Positions 1 through 48,331 of a stretch of 64,000 nt of DNA are shown here, one piece after another. Location of the stretch: NCBI RefSeq assembly GCF_035934735.1, contig NZ_CP142396.1, forward strand, positions 1 to 64,000, read 5' to 3'. Numbering within the stretch: position 1 is the stretch's first letter; each line of letters begins with the position of its first letter. Source of the DNA: Sedimentibacter sp. MB31-C6. Its GTDB lineage: Bacteria > Bacillota > Clostridia > Tissierellales > Sedimentibacteraceae. The notes below the pieces were generated by a model that was given only the letters and a program-made list of their open reading frames with translations, made no database searches and had not been told where the DNA came from. A program made the position numbers and the translations under genes.

Positions 1-1098
1 ATGAAACACGCTAAAAGAGTTTTATTCTTTATTTTTTTTATTACAGTATTATTTATAGCTGTTTTTTTTGGTTATGATTTAAAAACCAATCCATATAAAT
101 TTCTAACTAAAAATAATGATTTGGTTGTTGAAGCTGAAGCAAAATATATAATTCCAGGTGGTCAAACTATAGGTGTTGAATTAAAAACAGAAGGTATTTT
201 AGTGGTAGGATTAGCTGATATAGTAAATACTGATAAAGTTTCTACTTCACCAGCAAAATTGGCTGGTATGCAAATTGGAGATAAGATTTTAAGTATTGAT
301 TCTATTAGATTTGAAGATGCAGAAGATATTATAAAATATACTGAAAGTAAAGGAATTAAAGATTATTCAATAACATATGAAAGAGAGGGTAAAATATACA
401 ATTGTAATATTACACCTGTGCAAATATATAAAAGCAATGAAATAAAGTTTGGATTTTGGGCCAGAGATGATATTGCAGGAATTGGTACGGTAACATTTGT
501 AGATCCTGAAACAGGTAGATTTAGTGCAATTGGACATGGAATAGCTGATGCAGATACAGGTAAATTAATAGACATAAAAACAGGAGTAATTTCAAAAGCA
601 AATATAACAAGTATAAAGTTAGGCAAAAAAGGTGAACCGGGTGAAATTATTGGTTATATATTAAGAGACGAAAAAAGTCTTGGAACCGTAGAAAATAACA
701 CAAATTTTGGTGTTTATGGAAATATTAATAAAAATGGTATGAATTATTTTAAAAATGACTTAATTGAAGTTGGATCAAAAGAGGAAATGACTTTAGGTCC
801 AGCAGAAATATATTCCTGCGTTAATAATGAAACTAAAATATATAATATAGAAGTTACTAAAATATTTTATCAAAATAAACCTGATGAAAAAAGTTTTGTG
901 ATAAAAATAGTAGATGATGAACTCTTAGGGTTAACTAATGGTATAATTCAAGGAATGAGTGGTTGTCCTGTGGTTCAAAATAATAAAATTGTTGGAGCTG
1001 TTACACATGTTTTTATGAATGATCCTACAAAGGGATATGGTATATATATAGAGTGGATTTTTAATGAATTTAATAGTAATGAAAAGCTTGAAATATAA
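1..1098 (+). CDS. spoIVB: SpoIVB serine peptidase (sporulation signal)
   Basis: SpoIVB is secreted by the forespore and cleaves SpoIVFA, which triggers pro-sigma-K processing in the mother cell. The 365 aa protein has one N-terminal membrane segment (about residues 8–24), a PDZ domain (about 50–135, beginning near the IPGGQ motif) and an S55 peptidase domain. The catalytic His is visible in SAIGHG (H179) and the catalytic Ser in GMSG (S320). The following GCP replaces the GSP of B. subtilis but is not the nucleophile. The tail AVTHVFMNDPTKGYGIYIEW is typical of the family. It lies directly upstream of spo0A, the conserved order in Firmicutes. The ATG is the first base of the window, so its ribosome binding site and promoter are not visible. 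Identification is secure. Confidence 0.95.
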   Translation: MKHAKRVLFFIFFITVLFIAVFFGYDLKTNPYKFLTKNNDLVVEAEAKYIIPGGQTIGVELKTEGILVVGLADIVNTDKVSTSPAKLAGMQIGDKILSIDSIRFEDAEDIIKYTESKGIKDYSITYEREGKIYNCNITPVQIYKSNEIKFGFWARDDIAGIGTVTFVDPETGRFSAIGHGIADADTGKLIDIKTGVISKANITSIKLGKKGEPGEIIGYILRDEKSLGTVENNTNFGVYGNINKNGMNYFKNDLIEVGSKEEMTLGPAEIYSCVNNETKIYNIEVTKIFYQNKPDEKSFVIKIVDDELLGLTNGIIQGMSGCPVVQNNKIVGAVTHVFMNDPTKGYGIYIEWIFNEFNSNEKLEI

Positions 1099-1309
1099 AA
1101 AAACGCAGTTTTCTTCAAATATCCGTATATTTTTGTATAGCAATAATATATTATTTATAAAGGAAGTTAAAAATAGTTTTTATTTAGAAAAAATACTATT
1201 ATAATAGAATTTTTTAAAGGATTTAAATTATTTTTAGAAAAAAAAAGGGTTTTTTATATTTTAAGCGTATAATATAAGTGAGCAATTAATTTATTATTAG
1301 GGGGAAAAA

Positions 1310-2104
1310 ATGATAAAAAAGGTTAATGTTGTAATTGCGGACGACAATAAAGAGTTTAGACTTATTTTAAAGGATTTCTTGATGAGCAAAAATATGTTTG
1401 ATGTTGTAGAAATGGCAGAAGACGGAATAAAAGCCATTGAGGCTGTAGAGGAATATGAGCCAGATATATTAATATTAGACATTATAATGCCTCATCTAGA
1501 TGGATTGGGGGTGTTAGAAAAACTACACAAAAAGGAATTGAAAAAATATCCGAAAGTAATAGTTTTATCAGCTGTTGGACATGATAAGGTTACACAAAGA
1601 GCAATTAATATGGGAGTAGATTATTATATAGTAAAACCATTTAATTTTGAATCATTCGCAGAAAGATTGATTCAGATATCTGAATTTGAAACATCGAGAG
1701 TTCAAAGTAAAAATCAAGAAATAGCATATAAGGAAAAAGTTAGTGCAGAAGTTAGTTTAGAAGTTAAAATAACTGAAATTTTGCATGAAGTTGGAGTTCC
1801 AGCTCACATTAAAGGTTATCAGTACCTGAGAACATCTATCCTTGATGTAGTTAATAATATTGATTTATTAGGTGCCATAACAAAGGAATTATATCCTATG
1901 ATTGCTAAAGAATATAATACAACATCTAGTAGAGTTGAAAGAGCAATTCGCCATGCTATAGAAGTTGCTTGGACTAGAGGTAAAATTGAAACTATTAACA
2001 ACATATTTGGATATACAATTCACAACAATAAAGGTAAACCAACTAATTCAGAGTTTATAGCAATGATAGCTGATAAACTTAGATTAGAACAAAAGGTATC
2101 TTAA
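1310..2104 (+). CDS. spo0A: Spo0A sporulation master response regulator
   Basis: Spo0A is the phosphorelay-controlled transcription factor that commits cells to sporulation. The 264 aa protein has an N-terminal receiver domain with acidic pocket D11/D12, phospho-acceptor D57 in [12 protein letters not shown], and conserved K109 in YIVKPF. The C-terminal Spo0A DNA-binding domain (about 150–262) contains the recognition-helix region [13 protein letters not shown]. The start follows a GGGGG ribosome binding site, and a TATAAT-like sequence lies at 1268–1273. I found no exact 0A box in the 211 bp upstream. The gene follows spoIVB in the canonical order and is closed by a strong terminator. Length and motifs match the family. 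Confidence 0.98.
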
Positions 2105-2130
2105 ATTCTAATAAATAAAATTATATGCAT

Positions 2131-2166
2131 ACTCCTTGTTTTGACTATAAAACAAGGAGTTTTTAA
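2131..2166 (+). terminator. Intrinsic terminator of spo0A
   Basis: The 12-bp stem ACTCCTTGTTTT/AAAACAAGGAGT closes on a 6-nt loop and is followed by a short T-run. It lies 27 bp after the spo0A stop codon. Confidence 0.9.
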
Positions 2167-2189
2167 AAATAATCAATTTGTTAAATAAC

Positions 2190-2218
2190 TTGACAAAAAC
2201 ATTTATTATTATTACAAT
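2190..2218 (+). promoter_or_regulatory. Sigma-A promoter of nudF
   Basis: A TTGACA -35 element (2190–2195) and a TACAAT -10 element (2213–2218) are separated by exactly 17 bp. They lie just after the spo0A terminator and upstream of the Nudix gene. Confidence 0.8.
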
Positions 2219-2282
2219 TAAGCAGATACTATTAAACTATTGAATAAAATTAAATGGAATTGCATATGGATAGGAGGCAATT

Positions 2283-2807
2283 TTGAATAAAGAAATAACT
2301 GTAAAAAGCGAAAAAATTTTTGAAGGAAAAATACTTAACTTAAGAATTGATACAGTTGAACTAGAAAATCAAAAATATGCAAAAAGAGAAATAGTTGAAC
2401 ATAAGGGAGCCTCTGCTATAATTGCATTAACTGAAAAGAATGAGATAATTTTAGTTCGACAATATAGAAAAGCTGTAGAAGACTTTTTATATGAATTGCC
2501 GGCAGGCATAATCAACTTAGCAGAAGAACCAGAGGAATGTGCAGCACGAGAACTGAGGGAAGAAACAGGTTTTGAAGCTAAAAAAATTACAAAAGTCTTT
2601 GAATTTTATTCTTCACCTGGGTTTTCAAATGAAAAAGTTCATTTGTACATGGCAGAGGATTTAACATATGTATCAACTAAATTTGATGAAGATGAATTTA
2701 TTGAAATATCAACATTTAGTAAAGAAGAAGCAAGGAAAATGTTAGAGACCAATAGTATTACTGATAGCAAGACTTTATTAGGATTATTATATTGGTTAAA
2801 TTCATGA
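2283..2807 (+). CDS. nudF: Nudix hydrolase, ADP-ribose pyrophosphatase type
   Basis: This enzyme hydrolyses ADP-ribose and related nucleoside diphosphates to AMP and a sugar phosphate. The 174 aa protein contains a perfect Nudix box (GX5EX7REUXEEXGU) at residues 75–97. The preceding RQYRKAVEDFLYELPAG is characteristic of the NudF/YqkG group. The start is TTG, supported by AGGAGG 5 nt upstream. The gene has its own near-consensus promoter and sits between spo0A and spoIIM. In B. subtilis nudF is likewise close to spoIIM and xerD. The exact substrate is inferred from the family. Confidence 0.9.
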   Translation: MNKEITVKSEKIFEGKILNLRIDTVELENQKYAKREIVEHKGASAIIALTEKNEIILVRQYRKAVEDFLYELPAGIINLAEEPEECAARELREETGFEAKKITKVFEFYSSPGFSNEKVHLYMAEDLTYVSTKFDEDEFIEISTFSKEEARKMLETNSITDSKTLLGLLYWLNS

Positions 2808-2820
2808 TAGTACGAATTAA

Positions 2821-2870
2821 ATCTCCTGTACAAGCATATTATTAAGTAAAGCTTTCAGGAGGTTTTTTTT
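2821..2870 (+). terminator. Terminator-like hairpin overlapping the spoIIM ribosome binding site
   Basis: CTCCTG (2823–2828) pairs with CAGGAG (2856–2861). The stem can be extended outwards and, through AAGC/GCTT, inwards. It is followed immediately by eight T residues and then the spoIIM ATG. The 3' arm is the spoIIM ribosome binding site (AGGAGG). The structure could terminate nudF transcription, mask spoIIM translation, or do both. Confidence 0.6.
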
Positions 2871-3452
2871 ATGAATAGAACATTAAAGAAGTTAATTTTC
2901 TCAGAAAAAAAAAGATTATTAACTCTTGTTGTTATTTTTGTAATAGCACTTATGCTTTCTGCATTAATTTTTCTTGTAACAGAGCATGATAATTTTGCAA
3001 GTATTAATTATTTAAGCATAAGTAAAATGACGTTAACAGAAATATTTCTAAAAACTTTGAAAAAAAATTTAATTTATTTTATATCTATTATTCTACTTAC
3101 TTGTATTGGAAAAAGTAATATTATTAATGGTTTATTTGGACTAATTTCAATTTACTACGGATTATCAGTTATATATATGATTAGAGCTATGCAATTTAAT
3201 AAAGTCTACTTCATATTTATATTTACTGACTATTTTATTTTCTTCCCACTTCTTTTTTATTTTACATATATTTCAAGCTCTGTATCAAAATATACAAAAA
3301 AAACAAAAAATGTAGAGACTATTTCACATAAATTTGATATAATTATATCTAGTTACATTAAATTATCATTTATATATATAGGGATTATTATTGCATATAG
3401 TTTTAGTTACAGTTATTTTATTTTATTATTAAGTAGATTGTTGGTGAGATAA
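2871..3452 (+). CDS. spoIIM: SpoIIM-like stage II sporulation membrane protein
   Basis: SpoIIM, with SpoIID and SpoIIP, remodels septal peptidoglycan for forespore engulfment. This 193 aa protein is highly hydrophobic, with about five membrane segments and a short basic N-terminus (MNRTLKKL). I assign it mainly from size, topology and position: it lies between nudF and the xerD-like gene, as in many clostridia and in B. subtilis. Its primary sequence is divergent and very rich in Ile, Phe, Tyr and Lys. The stop codon overlaps the next start (TAATG), so the two genes are probably translationally coupled. The start follows AGGAGG by 8 nt, but that site lies inside a hairpin. Confidence 0.7.
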   Translation: MNRTLKKLIFSEKKRLLTLVVIFVIALMLSALIFLVTEHDNFASINYLSISKMTLTEIFLKTLKKNLIYFISIILLTCIGKSNIINGLFGLISIYYGLSVIYMIRAMQFNKVYFIFIFTDYFIFFPLLFYFTYISSSVSKYTKKTKNVETISHKFDIIISSYIKLSFIYIGIIIAYSFSYSYFILLLSRLLVR

Positions 3453-4327
3453 TGAATAATTATATTGAAATTTACAAAAGATATCTAAATTCTAAGAATT
3501 TAAGCGTGAATACTGTGAGTTCATATATCTATGATCTGAAAAGTTTTAACAACTATTTAGAAAATAATTATTATATCGAAATTATTAATACAAAAAAAGC
3601 ACAAATATTAACTTACCTTGTTGATTTACAGAAACAAGGTAAAAGCTCATCAACTATTGCAAGAACAATTTCTGCATTGAAAAATTTTTTTAATTATTTA
3701 AAGATGGAGAAAATTATTATTGAAAATCCTGCTATGAGTATACATAGCCCTAAACAAGTTAAGAAAATACCATCTATTTTGTCCGAGAATGAAATAAACA
3801 TTTTGATGAATCTACCAGATATAAACACTTTTAAAGGAAGTAGAGACAATGCTATATTGGAACTTTTGTATTCATCAGGTATTAAAGTTACAGAATTAAT
3901 AAACATCAATACTAAAGATGTAAATTTAAATGCAGGAATAATTACTATAAAAGGTGCTAAAGAACGTATACTTCCATTAAGCAAATATTCAAAGAAAGCC
4001 ATTATTAATTACATAAACAATTTTAGAAATAATAAATGTAAAGAAGATAATGATTTCTTATTTATTAATATATATGGAGGTTCTATTTCTCGTCAAGGAA
4101 TTTGGAAAACACTGAAATTTTATGAAAAGCAAATGGATTTGAATAAAGAATTATCTCCACAAGTATTGAGAAATTCTTTTGCCGTTCATTTGATTTCCCA
4201 CGGAGCAGATCTTTGCACTGTACAAGATCTACTTGGTTTAACAAGTTTAGGGGCAACACAGAATTATATGCAAAACATAGAATATAAATCACTTGAAGTT
4301 TTTGAAAGAACATTTCCAAGAGCATAG
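3452..4327 (+). CDS. XerD-like tyrosine recombinase with degenerate active site
   Basis: The 291 aa protein has the full XerC/XerD length: a SAM-like N-terminal core-binding domain (1–95) and a C-terminal catalytic fold ending in the typical FPRA. It sits where xerD normally lies, between spoIIM and deoB. Compared with XerD, the first catalytic Arg is Lys (K145 in SSGIKVTEL), the HxxR His is Gln (Q237 in SPQVLRNSF), and the LGH His is Leu (L263 in LLGLTS). The hairpin Lys (KGAKER), R240 and nucleophile Y272 remain. Three independent losses suggest it binds DNA but recombines poorly or not at all, or works with a partner. A fully intact paralogue is encoded at 45.8–46.8 kb. The start overlaps the spoIIM stop by 1 nt. 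Confidence 0.85.
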   Translation: MNNYIEIYKRYLNSKNLSVNTVSSYIYDLKSFNNYLENNYYIEIINTKKAQILTYLVDLQKQGKSSSTIARTISALKNFFNYLKMEKIIIENPAMSIHSPKQVKKIPSILSENEINILMNLPDINTFKGSRDNAILELLYSSGIKVTELININTKDVNLNAGIITIKGAKERILPLSKYSKKAIINYINNFRNNKCKEDNDFLFINIYGGSISRQGIWKTLKFYEKQMDLNKELSPQVLRNSFAVHLISHGADLCTVQDLLGLTSLGATQNYMQNIEYKSLEVFERTFPRA

Positions 4328-4353
4328 ATAAAACATAGATAAGGAGTAGACAA

Positions 4354-5532
4354 ATGATAAAAAGAGTAATTTTAATAGTTTTAGACAGTGTCGGTATAGG
4401 AGAATTGCCAGATGCTGCCCAATATGGTGATATCGGTAGCAATACAGTAAAAAATATTTATAAAAATATAGACGGTTTTGCTTTACCTAATTTAGAAAAA
4501 TTAGGGCTTTTAAATATCGAAGGTCTAAAAGAAATAAAAAAAGCTGATGAATTTGACGCAACAGTTGGCAGATGTAATGAGAAATCAAATGGAAAGGATA
4601 CAACTACGGGTCATTGGGAAATTAGTGGTATAGTATTAGACAAACCATTCCCTACATACCCTAATGGTTTTCCTGATGAAATAATTAAAGAATTTGAAAG
4701 CAAAGTTGGAAGAAAGACAATAGGCAATTATCCAGCTTCTGGCACAGAGATAATTAAAATATTAGGTAAAGAGCATATAGAAACTGGAAAACTTATTGTA
4801 TATACTTCCGCTGATAGTGTATTTCAAATTGCAGCCCATGAAGATATCGTTCCTTTAGATGAGTTATATAAAATTTGCGAAACAGCTCGTCAATTACTTA
4901 AAGAAGAGCACGGTGTCGGAAGAGTTATTGCTAGACCTTTTATAGGAACAGATGGGAACTTTGCCAGAACAAAAAATAGAAAAGATTTTTCCCTAGAACC
5001 TCCAAAGGATACAATGCTTGATTATCTTAAAAAGAATAACAAAGAAGTTTATGCTATAGGAAAAATCGAAGACATTTTTGTAAATAGAGGAATTACGCAA
5101 TCTAATCACACAACAAATAACAATGATGGAATTGAAGCTACTATATCTACAATTAAAAAAGATTTCGAAGGATTAATATTTACAAACCTTGTAGACTTCG
5201 ATATGATTTATGGTCATAGAAACGATAAAGAAGGTTATGCAGAAGCTTTGAAATATTTTGATAATAAATTACCTGAAATAATTAATGCTTTAAATAAGGA
5301 TGATATATTGATAATAACAGCTGATCACGGATGTGATCCAACTACTGATAGTACAGATCATTCAAGAGAATATATACCTTTAATAATATATGGAGATAAA
5401 ATAAAGGATAACAATAATATAGGAACTCTTGATACTTTTGCTTGCATAGGTAAAACTATACTAGACTTTTTTAACATAGAAAATAATTTAGAAGGCTACA
5501 GTATCAAGGGAAATATTTCGGACATTTACTAG
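4354..5532 (+). CDS. deoB: Phosphopentomutase
   Basis: DeoB interconverts ribose (or deoxyribose) 1-phosphate and 5-phosphate in nucleoside salvage. It is a Mn-dependent member of the alkaline phosphatase superfamily. The 392 aa protein shows the metal-binding start (D11 in [11 protein letters not shown]), the phospho-acceptor loop DTTTGHWE (Thr at about 84–85), and the C-terminal metal ligands in [10 protein letters not shown] and [11 protein letters not shown]. Length is normal. AAGGAG precedes the ATG, and the gene follows the xerD-like gene by 26 bp, so it is probably co-transcribed. B. subtilis has the same xerD–deoB order. Confidence 0.97.
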
Positions 5533-6884: not shown

Positions 6885-7604
6885 ATGGATTATTCCGTTA
6901 ATTTAAACATGTTCCAAGGTCCTTTTGATCTTTTGTTTCATTTGATTGAAAAAAAAGAAATTGATTTATACGATATACCTATATCAGAAATAACTGAACA
7001 ATATTTAATTTTTCTTGACCAAATGAGACAATTCAATATGAATATAACAAGTGAATTCATTCTAATGGCATCTACCCTTATCGAAATAAAGTCAAAAATG
7101 TTACTGCCTCAAAAAGAGAAAAATGAAGATCCTAGATTAGAACTTGTTAATAAATTATTGGAATATAAAATATTTAAAGAAGTAACAGAAAAATTAAAGG
7201 AATATGAAAGTGAAAGTAGCTATTATTTTTCTAAACCAAAGGAAGAAATGGCAATTTCCTCTGATGTGAAAATTGAACAACTTTCATTAAATGAAATTAA
7301 TATATACGAGTTATATAATATTTATATTTCTTTAATTAAAAATCAAAACTTAAAGATTGAACATGAAAGTAATTTTAAAATATATCGTGAAAATTATAGT
7401 GTTAAAGATTGTATAGAAGAATTAACAAACATTATTAAAAAAAATGGTCGTGTTTCATTGTTCAATACTTTTAAGAATAAAGGTATTATTACAAGAGAAT
7501 ATGTAATAACATCCTTTTTAGCAGTATTAGAACTTTCAAATAAACAAGGAATTAAGGTATATCAAAATGATACCTATAGTGATATATTGTTAATTGCTAC
7601 TTAG
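6885..7604 (+). CDS. scpA: Segregation and condensation protein A
   Basis: ScpA is the kleisin subunit of the Smc–ScpAB condensin that compacts and segregates the chromosome. The 239 aa protein starts with the diagnostic FQGPFDLLFHLIEKKEIDLY. An N-terminal helical region binds the Smc neck, a charged middle region follows, and the C-terminal winged helix (about 165–239) contacts the Smc head. Motifs and length match the family. AGAGG precedes the ATG, and scpB follows after 12 bp in the usual operon. It is 29 bp downstream of dacF. Confidence 0.95.
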   Translation: MDYSVNLNMFQGPFDLLFHLIEKKEIDLYDIPISEITEQYLIFLDQMRQFNMNITSEFILMASTLIEIKSKMLLPQKEKNEDPRLELVNKLLEYKIFKEVTEKLKEYESESSYYFSKPKEEMAISSDVKIEQLSLNEINIYELYNIYISLIKNQNLKIEHESNFKIYRENYSVKDCIEELTNIIKKNGRVSLFNTFKNKGIITREYVITSFLAVLELSNKQGIKVYQNDTYSDILLIAT

Positions 7605-7616
7605 AGAGGAAATGTT

Positions 7617-8147
7617 ATGAATTTAAAAAGTGTGATTGAAAGCTTACTATTTGCATGGGGTGAACCATTAAATATTAATGAAATGTCTAGAATATTAAAT
7701 TCTAAAACTCATGAAATAACCAAAATAATAGATGAAATGATAAATGAATATCATATCGATAAAAATAGAGGATTAATCATTAAAAGGTTCGGCAATTCTT
7801 ATCAGCTAATCACTAAAAAGGAAAATTTTGAATATATACAAAATTTGCTGCAGACAACGGTTAATAAGAGTTTGTCTACTGCCGCAATGGAGACCTTGTC
7901 GATAATTGCATATAAACAACCAGTTACAAAGGTTGAAATTGAACTTATTAGAGGCGTAAAATGCAGTCAAGTTATAAAGGGCCTCTTAGATAAAAATCTT
8001 ATTAAAGAAGTTGGAAGATTAGATAAACCAGGAAGACCTACAATATACGCTACAACAGATGATTTCTTAAAGCACTTTGGTTTAAAATCGATTGAAGAGC
8101 TTCCTGCCTTAAAAGTTGAATTTGAAGGAGATAAAGAAGCAACATAA
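7617..8147 (+). CDS. scpB: Segregation and condensation protein B
   Basis: ScpB dimers bind the central part of ScpA and regulate the Smc condensin. The 176 aa protein has two tandem winged-helix domains: residues 1–85 (SVIESLLFAWGEPLN at the start) and 86–165 (ETLSIIAYKQPVTKVEIELIRG, then GRPTIYATTDDFLKHFGL). These motifs are diagnostic. The gene overlaps a strong terminator hairpin at its own stop codon, suggesting that the dacF–scpA–scpB transcript ends here. The ATG is preceded by GAGAGGA. Confidence 0.95.
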   Translation: MNLKSVIESLLFAWGEPLNINEMSRILNSKTHEITKIIDEMINEYHIDKNRGLIIKRFGNSYQLITKKENFEYIQNLLQTTVNKSLSTAAMETLSIIAYKQPVTKVEIELIRGVKCSQVIKGLLDKNLIKEVGRLDKPGRPTIYATTDDFLKHFGLKSIEELPALKVEFEGDKEAT

Positions 8148-40978: not shown

Positions 40979-42280
40979 ATGTTAACAGAAGATATATTAT
41001 GTAAACAATTCGGTATAAGTAAAGATGTATTTAACTATGTCGCAAATATTGAAAAAAATATTAAAGATAAATACTTTAAAAAAATCGAACTGGTACGAGA
41101 GTATAATCAATATAAAGTTATAAATGCAATGCAAGAACATAATTTAGATTATACTAATTTTTATTGGAATACAGGTTACGGTTATGACGATATTGGAAGA
41201 GAAAAAACAGAGAAAATATTTGCTTCGGTATTTAATACAGAAGATGCATTAGTAAGACCTTCTATAGCATCAGGAACGCATGCTTTATATTTAACACTTT
41301 CATCCATATTACAATATGATGATGAAGTAATAGCAATATCAGGCAAGCCATATGATACGCTCCTTACTGTATTAGGAGAAGAAGGTAACGAGCCAGGTAA
41401 TCTAAAGGAAAGTGGAATTAAATATAAGGAGATACCATTATATAATAGTGAAATTGATTGGGAAAGAGCAATCAAAGAAATTACCATGAAAACTAAACTA
41501 CTTATGATTCAAAGGTCAACAGGTTATAGTTTTAGGTCAGCATTAACTTTGACAAAAATAAAAACTGCTATTGATAAAATACGAGAAGTTTATCCAAATA
41601 TATACATAATGGTTGACAATTGTTATGGTGAATTTATTGATGATATCGAACCTTCAGATGTAGGTGCTGATGTAATTGTAGGATCACTTATTAAGAATCC
41701 CGGAGGAGGAATAGCTCTTTCTGGTGGTTATGTGGCTGGTAAAAAGGAAATAATAAATCGTGTAGCTAACCGCTTAACTGCGCCTGGAGTTGGAAAAGAA
41801 ATTGGACTTACATATGGTACTACAAGAAATACTCTACAAGGATTGTTCTTTGCACCACATATAGTCAGTGAAGCTCTGAAAGGAGCCATACTCTTTGGAG
41901 GTGTTTTTAGTTCATTAGGATACGAAGTTACCCCAACTTTAGATGATGAAAGAAGCGATATAATTCAAGCGATTAAATTCAATAACAAAGATATGGTTGT
42001 TAAAATTTGTGAAGCAATTCAAAGTTCTTCTCCTGTAGATGCTCATGTAGCACCAATGCCATGGGAAATGCCAGGATATACAAACCAAGTAATTATGGCT
42101 TCAGGAGCTTTTATATCAGGATCATCAATAGAATTAAGTGCAGATGCTCCTATGAGAGCTCCATATATTGCATATATTCAGGGCGGATTGTTCTACGACC
42201 ATGCTAAATTAGGAGTAATGCTGTCTCTACAAAAATTGCTAGACTTTGATGACATTAAAAATAAAATTCATCTAAAATAA
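40979..42280 (+). CDS. ynbB: Methionine gamma-lyase family / YnbB-like PLP enzyme
   Basis: The 433 aa protein belongs to the family annotated as aluminium resistance protein or methionine gamma-lyase family (PF06838), a fold-type I PLP enzyme. Visible features are NTGYGYDDIGREKTEKIFASVF, SGTHALYLTLSSIL in the cofactor-binding region, MVDNCYGEFIDDIEPSDVGAD and the likely PLP lysine in GSLIKNPGGGIALSGGY. The true substrate is not established; C–S lyase activity is a family-level guess. It lies 8 bp after hfq and ends at a bidirectional terminator. In B. subtilis ynbB is also in the hfq neighbourhood. Confidence 0.88.
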   Translation: MLTEDILCKQFGISKDVFNYVANIEKNIKDKYFKKIELVREYNQYKVINAMQEHNLDYTNFYWNTGYGYDDIGREKTEKIFASVFNTEDALVRPSIASGTHALYLTLSSILQYDDEVIAISGKPYDTLLTVLGEEGNEPGNLKESGIKYKEIPLYNSEIDWERAIKEITMKTKLLMIQRSTGYSFRSALTLTKIKTAIDKIREVYPNIYIMVDNCYGEFIDDIEPSDVGADVIVGSLIKNPGGGIALSGGYVAGKKEIINRVANRLTAPGVGKEIGLTYGTTRNTLQGLFFAPHIVSEALKGAILFGGVFSSLGYEVTPTLDDERSDIIQAIKFNNKDMVVKICEAIQSSSPVDAHVAPMPWEMPGYTNQVIMASGAFISGSSIELSADAPMRAPYIAYIQGGLFYDHAKLGVMLSLQKLLDFDDIKNKIHLK

Positions 42281-43882: not shown

Positions 43883-45769
43883 ATGAACAATAATACTTTT
43901 GAAAAATTACAATATGAAGAATTGAAAAATAACGTAAAAGAATTTTGTGTAAGCACTTTAGGCAAAAACTTGATTAACAAACTAAAACCTTCTTCAAATA
44001 TCCAAACTGTGAAAAAAAGACTCATAGAAACAACAGAAGGAAGAAGAATTGTAGAAAGCTTCAATGTGCCATTACAAGGAATTGTTAACATTGATAATAT
44101 AGTTGCAAATTTAAATAAAGGTGCTATACTAACTCCAGAAGCATTAAATAATGTATCTGACTTTTTAAGAGGTTGCAGAAAAGTAAAACTATTTATGGAA
44201 GATAAGAAATTCTATGCTCCTACATTAATGAGTTACAGTTATTCTTTAAAGGAATTAACTAGTATTGAAGATGAAATTAATACTTGTATACACAATAATT
44301 CTGTAGATTCTAATGCAACAAAAACACTAAAAAAAATAAGAAAACATATTGAAAATACTGAAATTAAAATAGAAGAAAAGCTAGAGAGTTTTTTAAAATC
44401 AGATAAAAATAAAAAATATATTCAGGAATTTTTTATAACAAATAGAAATGGAAGATTTACAATTCCTATTAAATCGTCTTATAAAAATCAAGTAGATGGA
44501 ATGATTGTAGATACTTCTTCTACTGGCTCAACAGTTTTCATCGAGCCTTCAATTATTAGTAAATATACATCAGAATTATTACAACTTAAGGCTCAAGAAT
44601 CTGATGAGGAATATCAAATTTTATCATTTTTAACTGGATTAGTTAAGGATTATATAGACGAAATAACAAGAAATATAGAAGTAATTGGTATATATGATAT
44701 GATATTTGCTAAAGCAAAATACAGTATCGAAATTCAAGGAATTTCGCCAATTATAAATGATTATGGCTATATTAATATTATTAACGGTCGTCATCCATTA
44801 CTTAAAGGCAATATTATACCTTTAAACTTTTCCATTGGAAAAGTTTATAGAACACTTATTATTACTGGCCCTAACGCAGGTGGAAAAACAGTTGTGCTGA
44901 AAGCTGTTGGTTTATTAACATTAGCAGTGCAATCAGGCTTTCACATACCATGTGATGAAGGTTCAAACATATCTATATTTAATAGTATTTTTGCTGATAT
45001 TGGAGATGATCAAAGTATTGAAAATGCGTTAAGTACATTTTCATCTCACGTTAAAAACTTAGCTGAAATCATTAATAAAACAAATAAATCAACCCTTTTG
45101 CTTTTCGATGAAATAGGTAGTGGAACTGAGCCTAACGAAGGTGCAGCTTTAGCAATATCTATGCTAGAAGAAGTATATCACAAAGGAGCAATTACTGTTG
45201 CAACAACACACTATGGCGAAATTAAGAACTACACTTTGAATCATACTGATTTTGAAAATGCAGCGATGCTTTTTGATAATGAAACATTAGAGCCTTTATA
45301 CAAATTACAAATTGGAAAATCAGGGAAAAGCAATGCTTTGTGGATTGCAGATAAAATGGGAATAAACAACAATGTAATTAAAAGAGCTAAAAGTTATATT
45401 GATACTAAAGTTTATGATTATAGTATTGTTGATAAAGGTAAAGTTAGAATTGAAAAATATATTTCTAATAATGATATTTCATTTACCTATGAAATAGGAG
45501 ATAGAGTATATTTATCTGAATATAAAGACTATGGTTTAATATATAAATCAAAAAATGAATTTAACAACGTTACTGTTCTTTATAATGATGACTTCATAGA
45601 AGTTAATATAAAACAAATTAAATTACAATATAAAGCCAAGGATTTATATCCTTCAGATTATGATTTAAATACTCTTTTTACAAGTTTTGAAGATAGAAAA
45701 TTGGAAAAAGATATTGCTAGAGGATCCAAAAAAGCTCTGAAAAAACTTATGAAAAAGGAAAGTAAATAA
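43883..45769 (+). CDS. MutS2-like ATPase lacking the Smr nuclease domain
   Basis: The 628 aa protein has MutS2-type domains: an N-terminal helical clamp region (FEKLQYEELKNNVKEFCVSTLGK), GRFTIPIKSSYKNQVDGMIVDTSSTGSTVFIEP, and the ABC-type ATPase with Walker A TGPNAGGKTVVLK and Walker B LLLFDEIGSGTEPNEGAAL, then TTHYGEIK. Standard MutS2 is about 780 residues with a C-terminal KOW and Smr domain, which cleaves or splits collided ribosomes. Here the protein ends in a Lys-rich tail with no Smr motif. It is therefore a short MutS2 relative. AAAGGGA precedes the ATG. Confidence 0.88.
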   Translation: MNNNTFEKLQYEELKNNVKEFCVSTLGKNLINKLKPSSNIQTVKKRLIETTEGRRIVESFNVPLQGIVNIDNIVANLNKGAILTPEALNNVSDFLRGCRKVKLFMEDKKFYAPTLMSYSYSLKELTSIEDEINTCIHNNSVDSNATKTLKKIRKHIENTEIKIEEKLESFLKSDKNKKYIQEFFITNRNGRFTIPIKSSYKNQVDGMIVDTSSTGSTVFIEPSIISKYTSELLQLKAQESDEEYQILSFLTGLVKDYIDEITRNIEVIGIYDMIFAKAKYSIEIQGISPIINDYGYINIINGRHPLLKGNIIPLNFSIGKVYRTLIITGPNAGGKTVVLKAVGLLTLAVQSGFHIPCDEGSNISIFNSIFADIGDDQSIENALSTFSSHVKNLAEIINKTNKSTLLLFDEIGSGTEPNEGAALAISMLEEVYHKGAITVATTHYGEIKNYTLNHTDFENAAMLFDNETLEPLYKLQIGKSGKSNALWIADKMGINNNVIKRAKSYIDTKVYDYSIVDKGKVRIEKYISNNDISFTYEIGDRVYLSEYKDYGLIYKSKNEFNNVTVLYNDDFIEVNIKQIKLQYKAKDLYPSDYDLNTLFTSFEDRKLEKDIARGSKKALKKLMKKESK

Positions 45770-45824: not shown

Positions 45825-46787
45825 TTAAATATCATTTAAAGGATTATGTTTAACAGCTTCACGTAATTGTTTTTTATCTATATGCGTATAAATTTGTGTA
45901 GTAGATACACTTTCATGACCAAGTAATTCCTGAAGTGCTCTAATATCTACATTACCATACTGATACATCAAAGTTGCAGCAGTGTGGCGCAATTTGTGAG
46001 GAGAGTAGTGCTTGCCAGATAAACCGGCTTCATTTAAGTATTTACAAACCATGTGTTGAACACCTCTTTGAGTGAATCTAGTTTTACGATTACTTAAAAA
46101 TAGCGCGTTTTCATGGCCAGGCTTTGAATCCGGTTTTACAGCAAGATAATCTTCAATGGCTTTTACACAGGCATCATTCAAGTAAATTGTTCTTTCCTTG
46201 TTACCTTTACCTACAACAGTTAATGTATCACCTTTGATTTTATCTATATCAATACTTATTAGCTCTGATAATCGAAGCCCACAATTTAAAAATAATGTAA
46301 TTATTGCAAAATCACGTTTTTCATTAGCCCCATTAATAGATGTAAGTATATCCTTTGATTCATCTAAAGACAAAGCTACAGGTAAACGACTGTTTTTTTT
46401 TGGAGTTTCTAAGTCAATGGCAGGATTTTCAGAAATTAACCTAACAATGGAATATAAATATTTAAAAAAAGAGCGAAGGCATGCAATTTTTCTAGCCTTA
46501 GTTCTATTAGAATTATTCCTTTCTCTGTCCATAAAAGCGATAAAAGCATGAAGGTCCATAATTTTAATTTTTTTTAAAATATCTAAAGTAACTAAGTTAA
46601 TATCTATATCATCAAAAACGTCAATCTTAGAACTTAATTTATATCTTACTACTATAAATCTATAAAAGGTTCTTAGGTCAAGGAAGTATTCACTGACCGT
46701 TTTTTCTGATCTGCCTTTAATAGATAACATATATTCTAAAAAATCACTCATTGGAGGAGGGCATAGGTCATTATAATTCGTATACAT
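45825..46787 (-). CDS. Intact XerC/XerD-type tyrosine recombinase
   Basis: The 320 aa protein has an N-terminal core-binding SAM-like domain (about 10–115) and a catalytic domain with every active-site residue: R172 (GLRLSEL), the Lys in GKGNKER (about K194–K197), H264 and R267 (SPHKLRH), H291 (LLGHES) and nucleophile Y300 (TTQIYTH). ATG 46787 follows AAGGAGA; an upstream ATG would add 11 residues. No excisionase, phage genes or att duplications are visible, so a housekeeping Xer role is more likely than mobility. This may replace the degenerate XerD-like protein at 3.5–4.3 kb. Confidence 0.92.
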   Translation of the reverse strand: MYTNYNDLCPPPMSDFLEYMLSIKGRSEKTVSEYFLDLRTFYRFIVVRYKLSSKIDVFDDIDINLVTLDILKKIKIMDLHAFIAFMDRERNNSNRTKARKIACLRSFFKYLYSIVRLISENPAIDLETPKKNSRLPVALSLDESKDILTSINGANEKRDFAIITLFLNCGLRLSELISIDIDKIKGDTLTVVGKGNKERTIYLNDACVKAIEDYLAVKPDSKPGHENALFLSNRKTRFTQRGVQHMVCKYLNEAGLSGKHYSPHKLRHTAATLMYQYGNVDIRALQELLGHESVSTTQIYTHIDKKQLREAVKHNPLNDI

Positions 46788-46967
46788 AATATTCTCCTTG
46801 GATAAATTAAATTGTCGCAAAATCTTTATAATTAAATTATATACAAAAATGGGAAGAAAGACAAGCCTTCAAAAAAATAAAAATCAAAGTCTTTGTTTTT
46901 ATTTTTGTTAAAATTATTAAACTTTCTGATATAGTACTAGAAATATCCAAATAGTTTTGATACTAAT

Positions 46968-47127
46968 GGTATAAATGGTCAATTAATGAAATAACTTTCG
47001 TTAAAACGCATTTTAAAGCCTCGTTTTTTTTATCTGATTTTCTATTTAATGTCATTAAAAACTAAAGGTATAAATAGTCGTTTGATAAAATAACTTTCGT
47101 TAAAACGCATTTTAAGGCGTCGTTTTT
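46968..47127. repeat. Two direct repeats of about 60 bp
   Basis: Copies start at 46968 and 47067 (99-bp offset). Both contain GGTATAAAT, then an identical core of at least 26 bp (46991–47016 and 47090–47115, containing AACTTTCGTTAAAACGCA) and a CGTTTTT end. Each copy can fold AAAACG with CGTTTT, so they resemble paired terminators or binding sites. Confidence 0.8.
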
Positions 47128-47372
47128 ACAAAGACTAGCAATTAGCCATAGAAAACTAAACCTATATAATTAATGTGTGAAAATATATATTTTATATAAT
47201 TAATTGCATAATATAATTATAAATCAATATAAATTAATCTATAAAATAAATTAAACCATCTAAGACAAATTAATTTATATCATCACAAAACCTGTTTTTA
47301 TATTAAAATGACTAAAGTTAACAAAATAGTGAAATTTGAACTATTTTAAGGGCTCTTCTCTCAAATTAATGG

Positions 47373-47408
47373 TTTTATGTCGCAAAATAGATATTTTGCG
47401 ACATAAAA
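47373..47408. repeat. Perfect 17-bp palindrome with dif-like geometry
   Basis: Arms 47373–47389 and 47392–47408 are perfect inverted repeats separated by GA. The inner part reads as 11-bp arms ATGTCGCAAAA and TTTTGCGACAT around a 6-bp centre TAGATA, the arm–core–arm spacing of Xer dif sites. The arm motif TGTCGCAAAAT recurs at 46813–46823, just upstream of the recombinase start. It has no T-tail and so is a poor terminator. Confidence 0.75.
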
Positions 47409-47493
47409 ATTTTATATTTATAGAGAGATTTTAACATCTCCCTTTCAATTTAATAGCTTTTTTATTTATATTTAATAAGCTTACTGCTTCATA

Positions 47494-47748
47494 TTAAAAT
47501 TCTTTATTCTTATATATTGATAATGAAATCAAAACTGATATTGAAAATAATACTAAAGCAAATACGGGAGATAAATATATTATTAATTTAAGAATTTCTG
47601 CATCAAAAGATGGCATTTCAAGTCCTAATTTAGACAATATCACTATGATTCCTGTTGGAGCAAACAAAACTATCATCATTAAAATACGCCCTTTTTCCAC
47701 TCCAAATTTAAATAGGATTGATATTTTCCTTAATCGAATACATTTCAT
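47494..47748 (-). pseudogene. ABC-2 permease C-terminal fragment
   Basis: An 84-codon frame encodes FKFGVEKGRILMMIVLFAPTG followed by a second hydrophobic segment and a SIYKNKEF tail. This resembles the end of ABC-2 type permeases of GntR-linked exporters. The start shown is not native; the N-terminal membrane half is missing. It overlaps the ATPase fragment in another frame, consistent with a deletion joining the two genes. Confidence 0.65.
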
Positions 47749-47953
47749 TTTTATTATCTTTATCTAAAATTGTAATTATTCCTTCGTCTCGATTTATTAA
47801 ATCTAGAATAAGTTTTATAGTTGTACTTTTGCCAGCTCCATTTTCTCCAATAAAACCCATTATGCATCCTTTAGGCATGCCAATATTAACATTGTCTAAC
47901 TTAAAATCTTTATATTTCTTTGTTACATTTTCTAATTTCAATGCATATTCCAT
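47708..47953 (-). pseudogene. ABC transporter ATP-binding protein, N-terminal fragment
   Basis: An 81-codon frame encodes the start of an ABC ATPase: ALKLENVTKKYKDFKLDNV, then Walker A FIGENGAGKSTTIKLIL. It stops soon after, with no Q-loop, signature or Walker B. Normal members are about 280–300 residues. The fragment runs straight into the permease remnant. The intact GntR regulator is 3 bp upstream. It is a broken exporter. Confidence 0.85.
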
Positions 47954-47956
47954 AAG

Positions 47957-48331
47957 TTACTCTCCTTCATAAAATAAAGTCAACATTTCTATTAATTCGT
48001 CTAGCTTTATCCCACAATTATAAGATAATTTAATAATTTCCTGCATATGATTTTCAATTTCCTTCAGCTGTTGCTCTTTAATTAAATCAATATTCCGGCT
48101 TGCAACAAAACTTCCTTTTCCGGTAAAGGAAACGGTAAATCCCTCTCTTTCAAGTTCTTCATATGCTCGTTTTGTTGTAATCACACTGATTCGCAGCTCT
48201 TTTGCCAAAAGCCTCATTGAAGGCAGCGCATCTCCTTCATTTAATTCGCCCGAAATAATAAGTGACTTTATCTGTGAAACAATCTGTTCATAAATAGGTT
48301 GACCGCTTGAATTACTAATTATTATATTCAT
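47957..48331 (-). CDS. GntR family regulator (YtrA type)
   Basis: The 124 aa protein has a GntR winged-helix domain (QPIYEQIVSQIKSLIISGELNEGDALPSMRLLAKELRISVITTKRAYEELEREGF) and a short C-terminal helical tail, as in the YtrA subfamily that controls adjacent ABC exporters. The first ATG at 48343 lacks a ribosome binding site, while ATG 48331 follows GGTGG, so I use the latter. A 12-bp inverted repeat just upstream is the likely operator. Its target transporter is a deleted remnant, leaving an orphan regulator. Confidence 0.9.
   Translation of the reverse strand: MNIIISNSSGQPIYEQIVSQIKSLIISGELNEGDALPSMRLLAKELRISVITTKRAYEELEREGFTVSFTGKGSFVASRNIDLIKEQQLKEIENHMQEIIKLSYNCGIKLDELIEMLTLFYEGE

Follow-up and report, generated by a model that had tools for sequence, protein, structure and literature searches.

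The window analysed here is a stretch of 64,000 nucleotides from Sedimentibacter, and all positions below refer to it unless a contig is named. The gene at nt 3452–4327 (+ strand) encodes a 291-aa Xer protein that lacks three catalytic residues. It is adjoined by deoB, the downstream neighbour typical of the xerD locus (nt 4354–5532, + strand; NF003766, 559.7 bits; TIGR01696, 518.9 bits). Spo0A, identified by TIGR02875, is encoded nearby, and the SMC complex subunit genes scpA and scpB (nt 6885–8147, + strand; NF000995, TIGR00281) are found 2.6 kb downstream of xerD. The initial annotation had taken both flanking genes, spoIIM and deoB, as those expected for xerD. This holds for deoB, whereas the membrane ORF of 193 aa found where spoIIM is expected (nt 2871–3452) had no match in Pfam and NCBIfam searches, so that its name is given by position only.

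A second contig of the assembly (locus L198, G000:C2:1-13652) matches the end-start junction of contig C1 at 100% identity, as a circular permutation. It duplicates C1:3000938-3009901 plus 1-4690, hence xerD is present twice. This copy corresponds either to an assembly duplicate or, less likely, to an excised circle.

Residue positions in the xerD-locus protein were set by alignment to E. coli XerD (1a0p) and relatives. The match to the XerD model TIGR02225 covers the full length but remains below the cut-off (275.9 versus 329.6 bits). The catalytic R-K-H-R-H-Y set is incomplete: the first Arg (ArgI) is Lys145 (codon at nt 3884–3886), the His of the HxxR motif is Gln237 (nt 4160–4162) and the His of the LGH motif is Leu263 (nt 4238–4240). 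The second Arg (ArgII, Arg240, nt 4169–4171), the nucleophile Tyr272 (nt 4265–4267) and the C-terminal FPRA are retained (all codons on the + strand). The alignment thus agrees with the initial annotation, which had listed the same three replacements in a protein of full XerD length keeping Y272 and the FPRA end. The catalytic Lys is also doubtful, because the beta2-beta3 loop lacks two residues compared with E. coli XerD and the Lys position varies among relatives (Glu, Ala, Ser, Asn or Lys).

In an AlphaFold2 model of the protein (mean pLDDT 88.8, pTM 0.63), the two-domain helix/strand order is complete, and among solved folds XerA, an archaeal Xer and XerD come closest. Residues invariant throughout the family include K61, K64, S65, T68 and R71 in the core-binding helix, and R214, Q215, W218, K219 and K222, a pattern which would fit DNA binding. 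In Tn1549 Int, a related enzyme, replacement of ArgI by Lys (R225K) gives the mutant routinely used as the inactive form (PMC5871717). Loss of activity is therefore likely in the Sedimentibacter XerD, which probably no longer cuts DNA.

The window encodes another tyrosine recombinase, XerC-like and 320 aa long, at nt 45825–46787 (- strand), starting at an ATG with an AAGGAG ribosome site; the ORF is readable from a TTG at nt 46820. All six catalytic residues (R, K, H, R, H, Y) are present, and they are invariant in all orthologues from the order whose sequence extends over them, so the earlier description of an intact recombinase at 45.8 kb stands. The protein is below the cut-off of the XerC (TIGR02224, 230 versus 335.15 bits), XerS (NF003462, 152.8 versus 267 bits) and archaeal XerA (NF040815, 200.2 versus 220 bits) models, the last being the one whose cut-off it approaches most closely; its best PDB match is XerA (5hxy). 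The gene was found in 57 of 61 genomes of the order, absent only where completeness was 88% or less, and in 97 of 147 genomes of the class Clostridia. MutS2 is encoded at nt 43883–45769; its 628 aa match only positions 1–515 of the 790 of the model, the C-terminal part being missing or diverged.

Age of the replacements and selection on xerD

An xerD orthologue was found in 23 of 25 Sedimentibacter genomes; the other two (G017 and G019) were not counted as absences, deoB being missing or cut at the contig end. In each of the 23 full orthologues at least one of the three residues is gone, and in 22 of them all three are. Written in the order ArgI, His, ArgII, His/Trp, Tyr, the states are KQRLY (18 genomes), NQRLY (2), NMRLY (2) and RQRHY (1). 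Outside Sedimentibacter, the state is KQRHY in two other genera of the family and KQRQY in family f3. Among the 25 family members, position 145 is Lys (AAA or AAG) in 20, Asn (AAT) in four and Arg (AGA) in one; position 237 is Gln in 23 and Met in two; position 263 is Leu in 22 and His in three (G009 and the two other genera). Arg240 and Tyr272 are found in 25 out of 25, and the PR end is present in all. Since the replacements recur across the orthologues of the genus, chance or sequencing error can be excluded.

The same replacements were found in the type strains S. hydroxybenzoicus, S. saalensis and S. acidaminivorans by an alignment-based scan of contigs, whose patterns were built on the degenerate motif and which therefore gives a biased sample. 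An earlier contig scan with a single Sedimentibacter XerD protein as the query gave no matches.

A maximum-likelihood XerD tree, which carries a long-branch warning, places the Lys and Gln replacements on the stem of families f1 and f3 (support 100/98); R148K and H244Q are common to the whole family and to a sister family. In the same tree the Leu arises inside Sedimentibacter, after G009. The XerD of this genome (L009) is the one with Arg at ArgI and His at LGH, and it has either reverted or kept an early state.

One alternative is that XerD is still an active recombinase whose active site has been rewired, with Lys in place of Arg and Gln in place of His. The nucleophile Tyr and ArgII are indeed invariant in the family, and the HxxR His is commonly Gln or Asn among clostridial XerDs. 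However, three changes occur together, one of them being the ArgI to Lys change that inactivates Tn1549 Int; Met at the His position and Asn at ArgI, both seen within the genus, fit a loss of constraint; and the search near the terminus revealed no further dif. We consider continued activity very unlikely.

The dN/dS ratio of xerD in the closest pairs was 0.04–0.18, which indicates purifying selection; for the XerC-like gene it was 0.01–0.05. The reading frame of xerD is open in all 23 genomes of the genus in which the locus is assembled, and in the family Leu263 is encoded by five different codons (CTT, CTC, CTG, CTA and TTA). These observations bear on the possibility that XerD has no current function and is slowly heading for loss. 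Such a decay could account for xerD evolving faster than the XerC-like gene (dN ratio about 1.6) and for its being truncated or missing in several families (genomes G041, G048, G030 and G060; G029, G037, G040, G046, G054 and G059). It agrees poorly with the low dN/dS, the open frames and a Leu263 kept through five codons, and we give it little credence. The earlier proposal of an early stage of loss is not borne out: the replacements are old and genus-wide, with Lys and Gln on the f1 and f3 stem, and the gene is under purifying selection. Sedimentibacter xerD is old, under selection and apparently free of catalytic constraint. A retained non-catalytic role, one of the earlier suggestions, is likely.

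The palindrome at the replication terminus

Upstream of the XerC-like gene, at nt 47377–47404, lies a 28-bp palindrome, ATGTCGCAAAATAGATATTTTGCGACAT, which we propose as the dif site of the XerC-like recombinase. It consists of ATGTCGCAAAAT-AGAT-ATTTTGCGACAT, with perfectly symmetric arms around a non-palindromic centre, and can be read as 12-4-12 or as 11-6-11, the latter being the size of dif. It is unique genome-wide at up to three mismatches, and the reversed control gave 0 matches.

The GC skew, determined on 20 sampled stretches and the window, switches from + to - at nt 46000–48000, and dnaA is located at C1:1389550, which puts the palindrome at 0.446 of the chromosome from dnaA. The replication terminus is therefore inside the window, with the XerC-like gene exactly there. 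In 16 of 16 genomes assembled as one contig, the XerC-like gene or the palindrome is 0.40–0.50 of the chromosome away from dnaA.

The palindrome was detected in 51 of 61 genomes of the order, near the XerC-like gene wherever both are on one contig. Palindromes with at least 11 of 12 pairs were found in 41 of 57 upstream stretches from the order, versus 21 of 1140 mononucleotide shuffles. In the class Clostridia sample, such a palindrome is present in most of the best 29 loci. The two arms vary between lineages as pairs, in 18 versions (ATGTCGCAAAAT, ATGTCGCTAAAT, TAGTCACAAAAT, ATTATACAAAAT, ATTACGCGAAAT, ACTTCGCTAAAT and others). None of the 74 sites has a self-complementary central tetramer (19 distinct centres in all, against a background of 8%), a result that is suggestive only, related genomes being non-independent.

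The palindrome also occurs where XerD does not. In genomes G040, G054 and G059 no XerD-grade match was obtained and no xerD adjoins deoB, yet the XerC-like gene and the palindrome are present, and the truncated XerDs of G041 and G048 co-occur with a palindrome.

The distance from the palindrome to the XerC-like start is 26–150 bp in most genomes of the order and 470–900 bp in Sedimentibacter. Just upstream of the Sedimentibacter start, after a TATAAT-like -10 element, there is a half-site, TGTCGCAAAAT (nt 46813–46823, + strand), which is kept in the genus. At this place in the XerC-like promoter, the palindrome is complete in a sister genus (G026). The full site may have been copied or moved upstream, half of it being left at the Sedimentibacter promoter, and autoregulation is possible.

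These arrangements raise the question of whether the palindrome is a mere operator for autorepression of the XerC-like gene, dif being elsewhere. In most genomes it does overlap the promoter region of that gene, and the half-site stands at the promoter in Sedimentibacter. Against a mere operator, the full Sedimentibacter site, 470–900 bp from the gene, is still symmetric and unique, and each of the 74 sites has an asymmetric centre, which a directional crossover site requires; geometry and terminus position both fit dif. An operator function alone is quite unlikely.

A search for the canonical dif (TNNNNNAATNTANATTATGTNAA) gave many chance matches, only one of them conserved, and no second dif near the terminus. 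The conserved match, at nt 40983, was rejected, being the coding start (MLTEDILCK) of the gene that follows an hfq-like ORF. One Xer protein with the full set of catalytic residues is genetically linked to a unique, dif-sized site at the terminus, and we read the palindrome and the XerC-like gene as a putative one-recombinase dif system of the XerS/difSL or XerH/difH type.

A possible role for XerD

Our proposed explanation is the following. The gene at nt 3452–4327 would be a vertically inherited XerD turned pseudo-recombinase, which folds and probably binds DNA but would not break and join it. Chromosome dimers would be resolved by the XerC-like protein alone, acting as a homotetramer on the symmetric dif that adjoins the XerC-like gene in the terminus region. 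XerD could have lost catalysis because dimers would be resolved by this one other recombinase. Selection would keep XerD for a task in which sequence-specific DNA binding is needed and cleavage is dispensable. To this explanation as a whole, pseudo-recombinase XerD, single XerC-like/dif system and non-catalytic DNA-binding role, we assign a probability of roughly 60%; within it, we infer the loss of XerD activity and recombination at the palindrome from the residues lost and from the properties of the site.

The degenerate XerD could alternatively be an allosteric or structural partner, bound on dif together with the XerC-like protein and activating it as the sole cutter, XerC-first Holliday junctions being resolved by replication. 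Mutual activation is known for the two Xer proteins of E. coli, and retention of Arg240, Tyr272 and the PR end in every XerD of the family speaks for a partner. Against this, the symmetry of the site extends to both arms throughout the order and the sampled class genomes, the site is present in genomes without XerD, and the XerC-like protein has every residue for both exchanges. A recombinase with its own symmetric terminus site, found also where XerD is missing, needs no second type of subunit. For this reason the suggestion that XerD is a partner of the recombinase at 45.8 kb was not favoured, and we regard it as unlikely; there may still be a regulatory contact between the two proteins.

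If XerD is a retained DNA binder, its likeliest task would be to mark the terminus for the unloading of SMC-ScpAB, as XerD does in B. subtilis, where unloading reportedly needs neither a catalytic residue, XerC nor dif. The unloading of SMC at the terminus by B. subtilis XerD was described by Karaboja 2021, as cited in passages of PMC10945525, PMC12322038 and PMC8242196. The distance of 2.6 kb between xerD and scpA-scpB reflects an old gene order and points only weakly to such a role. Taken on its own, SMC unloading by the Sedimentibacter XerD is a tentative proposal, to which we give somewhat less than an even chance.

XerD in the class Clostridia and related Xer systems

In the class Clostridia, 41 of 90 XerDs have a substitution at one or more of the five residues. 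Erosion was not correlated with detection of the XerC-like gene in these genomes (28 of 62 with the gene, versus 13 of 28 without), and presence of XerD did not depend detectably on presence of the XerC-like gene (p = 0.21). Erosion alone is therefore no proof that XerD was released by a one-recombinase system. About half of the clostridial XerDs have the full residue set, though most sampled sites are symmetric.

XerD presence was tied to the spore marker SpoIVA (83 of 93 versus 28 of 54; odds ratio 7.7, p = 8e-7, a test that ignores kinship; loci L317-L406). Spore formers were about equally frequent among eroded (37 of 42) and intact (46 of 49) XerDs.

We think it probable that much of the class uses one XerC-like recombinase with a perfectly symmetric dif that adjoins the recombinase gene at the terminus, and not resolution by XerC plus XerD. 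For XerD, so released, loss of catalytic residues or of the entire gene would have occurred many times, and the protein would survive mostly in spore formers as a non-catalytic DNA binder. If true, a large and medically important class joins the bacteria and archaea with a single recombinase, its dif being distinct in its perfect symmetry. Clostridial XerDs would then offer a natural separation of function, being kept by selection without recombination, and would make it possible to test directly if SMC unloading or a sporulation-tied task maintains them.

According to reviews and surveys (PMC5357621, PMC3025954, PMC8138268), XerCD is present in nearly all bacteria, including Firmicutes, single systems being listed only for streptococci and lactococci (XerS), epsilon-proteobacteria (XerH) and archaea (XerA); no passage on a single-recombinase system in Clostridia was found in them. 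With a model seeded on B. subtilis, a dif site was predicted in most Firmicutes (Kono 2011), and some of these predictions may correspond to the present palindromes. As here, XerS is a single recombinase genetically linked to its site (PMC5357621), but difSL is atypical, with 31 bp, whereas the Sedimentibacter site has 28 bp and is symmetric. XerH likewise acts as the one recombinase at its own resolution site; the arms of native difH differ in binding and cleavage (PMC5241119), whereas those of the Clostridia palindrome are nearly always identical. Archaeal XerA is also a single recombinase and, by model cut-off and PDB match, the closest to the XerC-like protein. The latter nevertheless differs from XerA in being below its cut-off and bacterial, with a site beside the gene and at the terminus.

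As for XerD, the Sedimentibacter protein resembles B. subtilis RipX/XerD, encoded at the spo/deoB locus, in its deoB locus, full length, fold and orthology (TIGR02225), and differs from it by the three replaced catalytic residues and a score below the TIGR02225 cut-off. The streptococcal XerD-like protein (NF002685, PRK02436) is a Xer protein encoded beside scpA-scpB in hosts that use XerS alone, and it is not known to recombine. The Sedimentibacter XerD scores 67 bits against NF002685, versus a cut-off of 178, and has 291 aa, versus 245 residues in the model. The two proteins are likely of separate origin.
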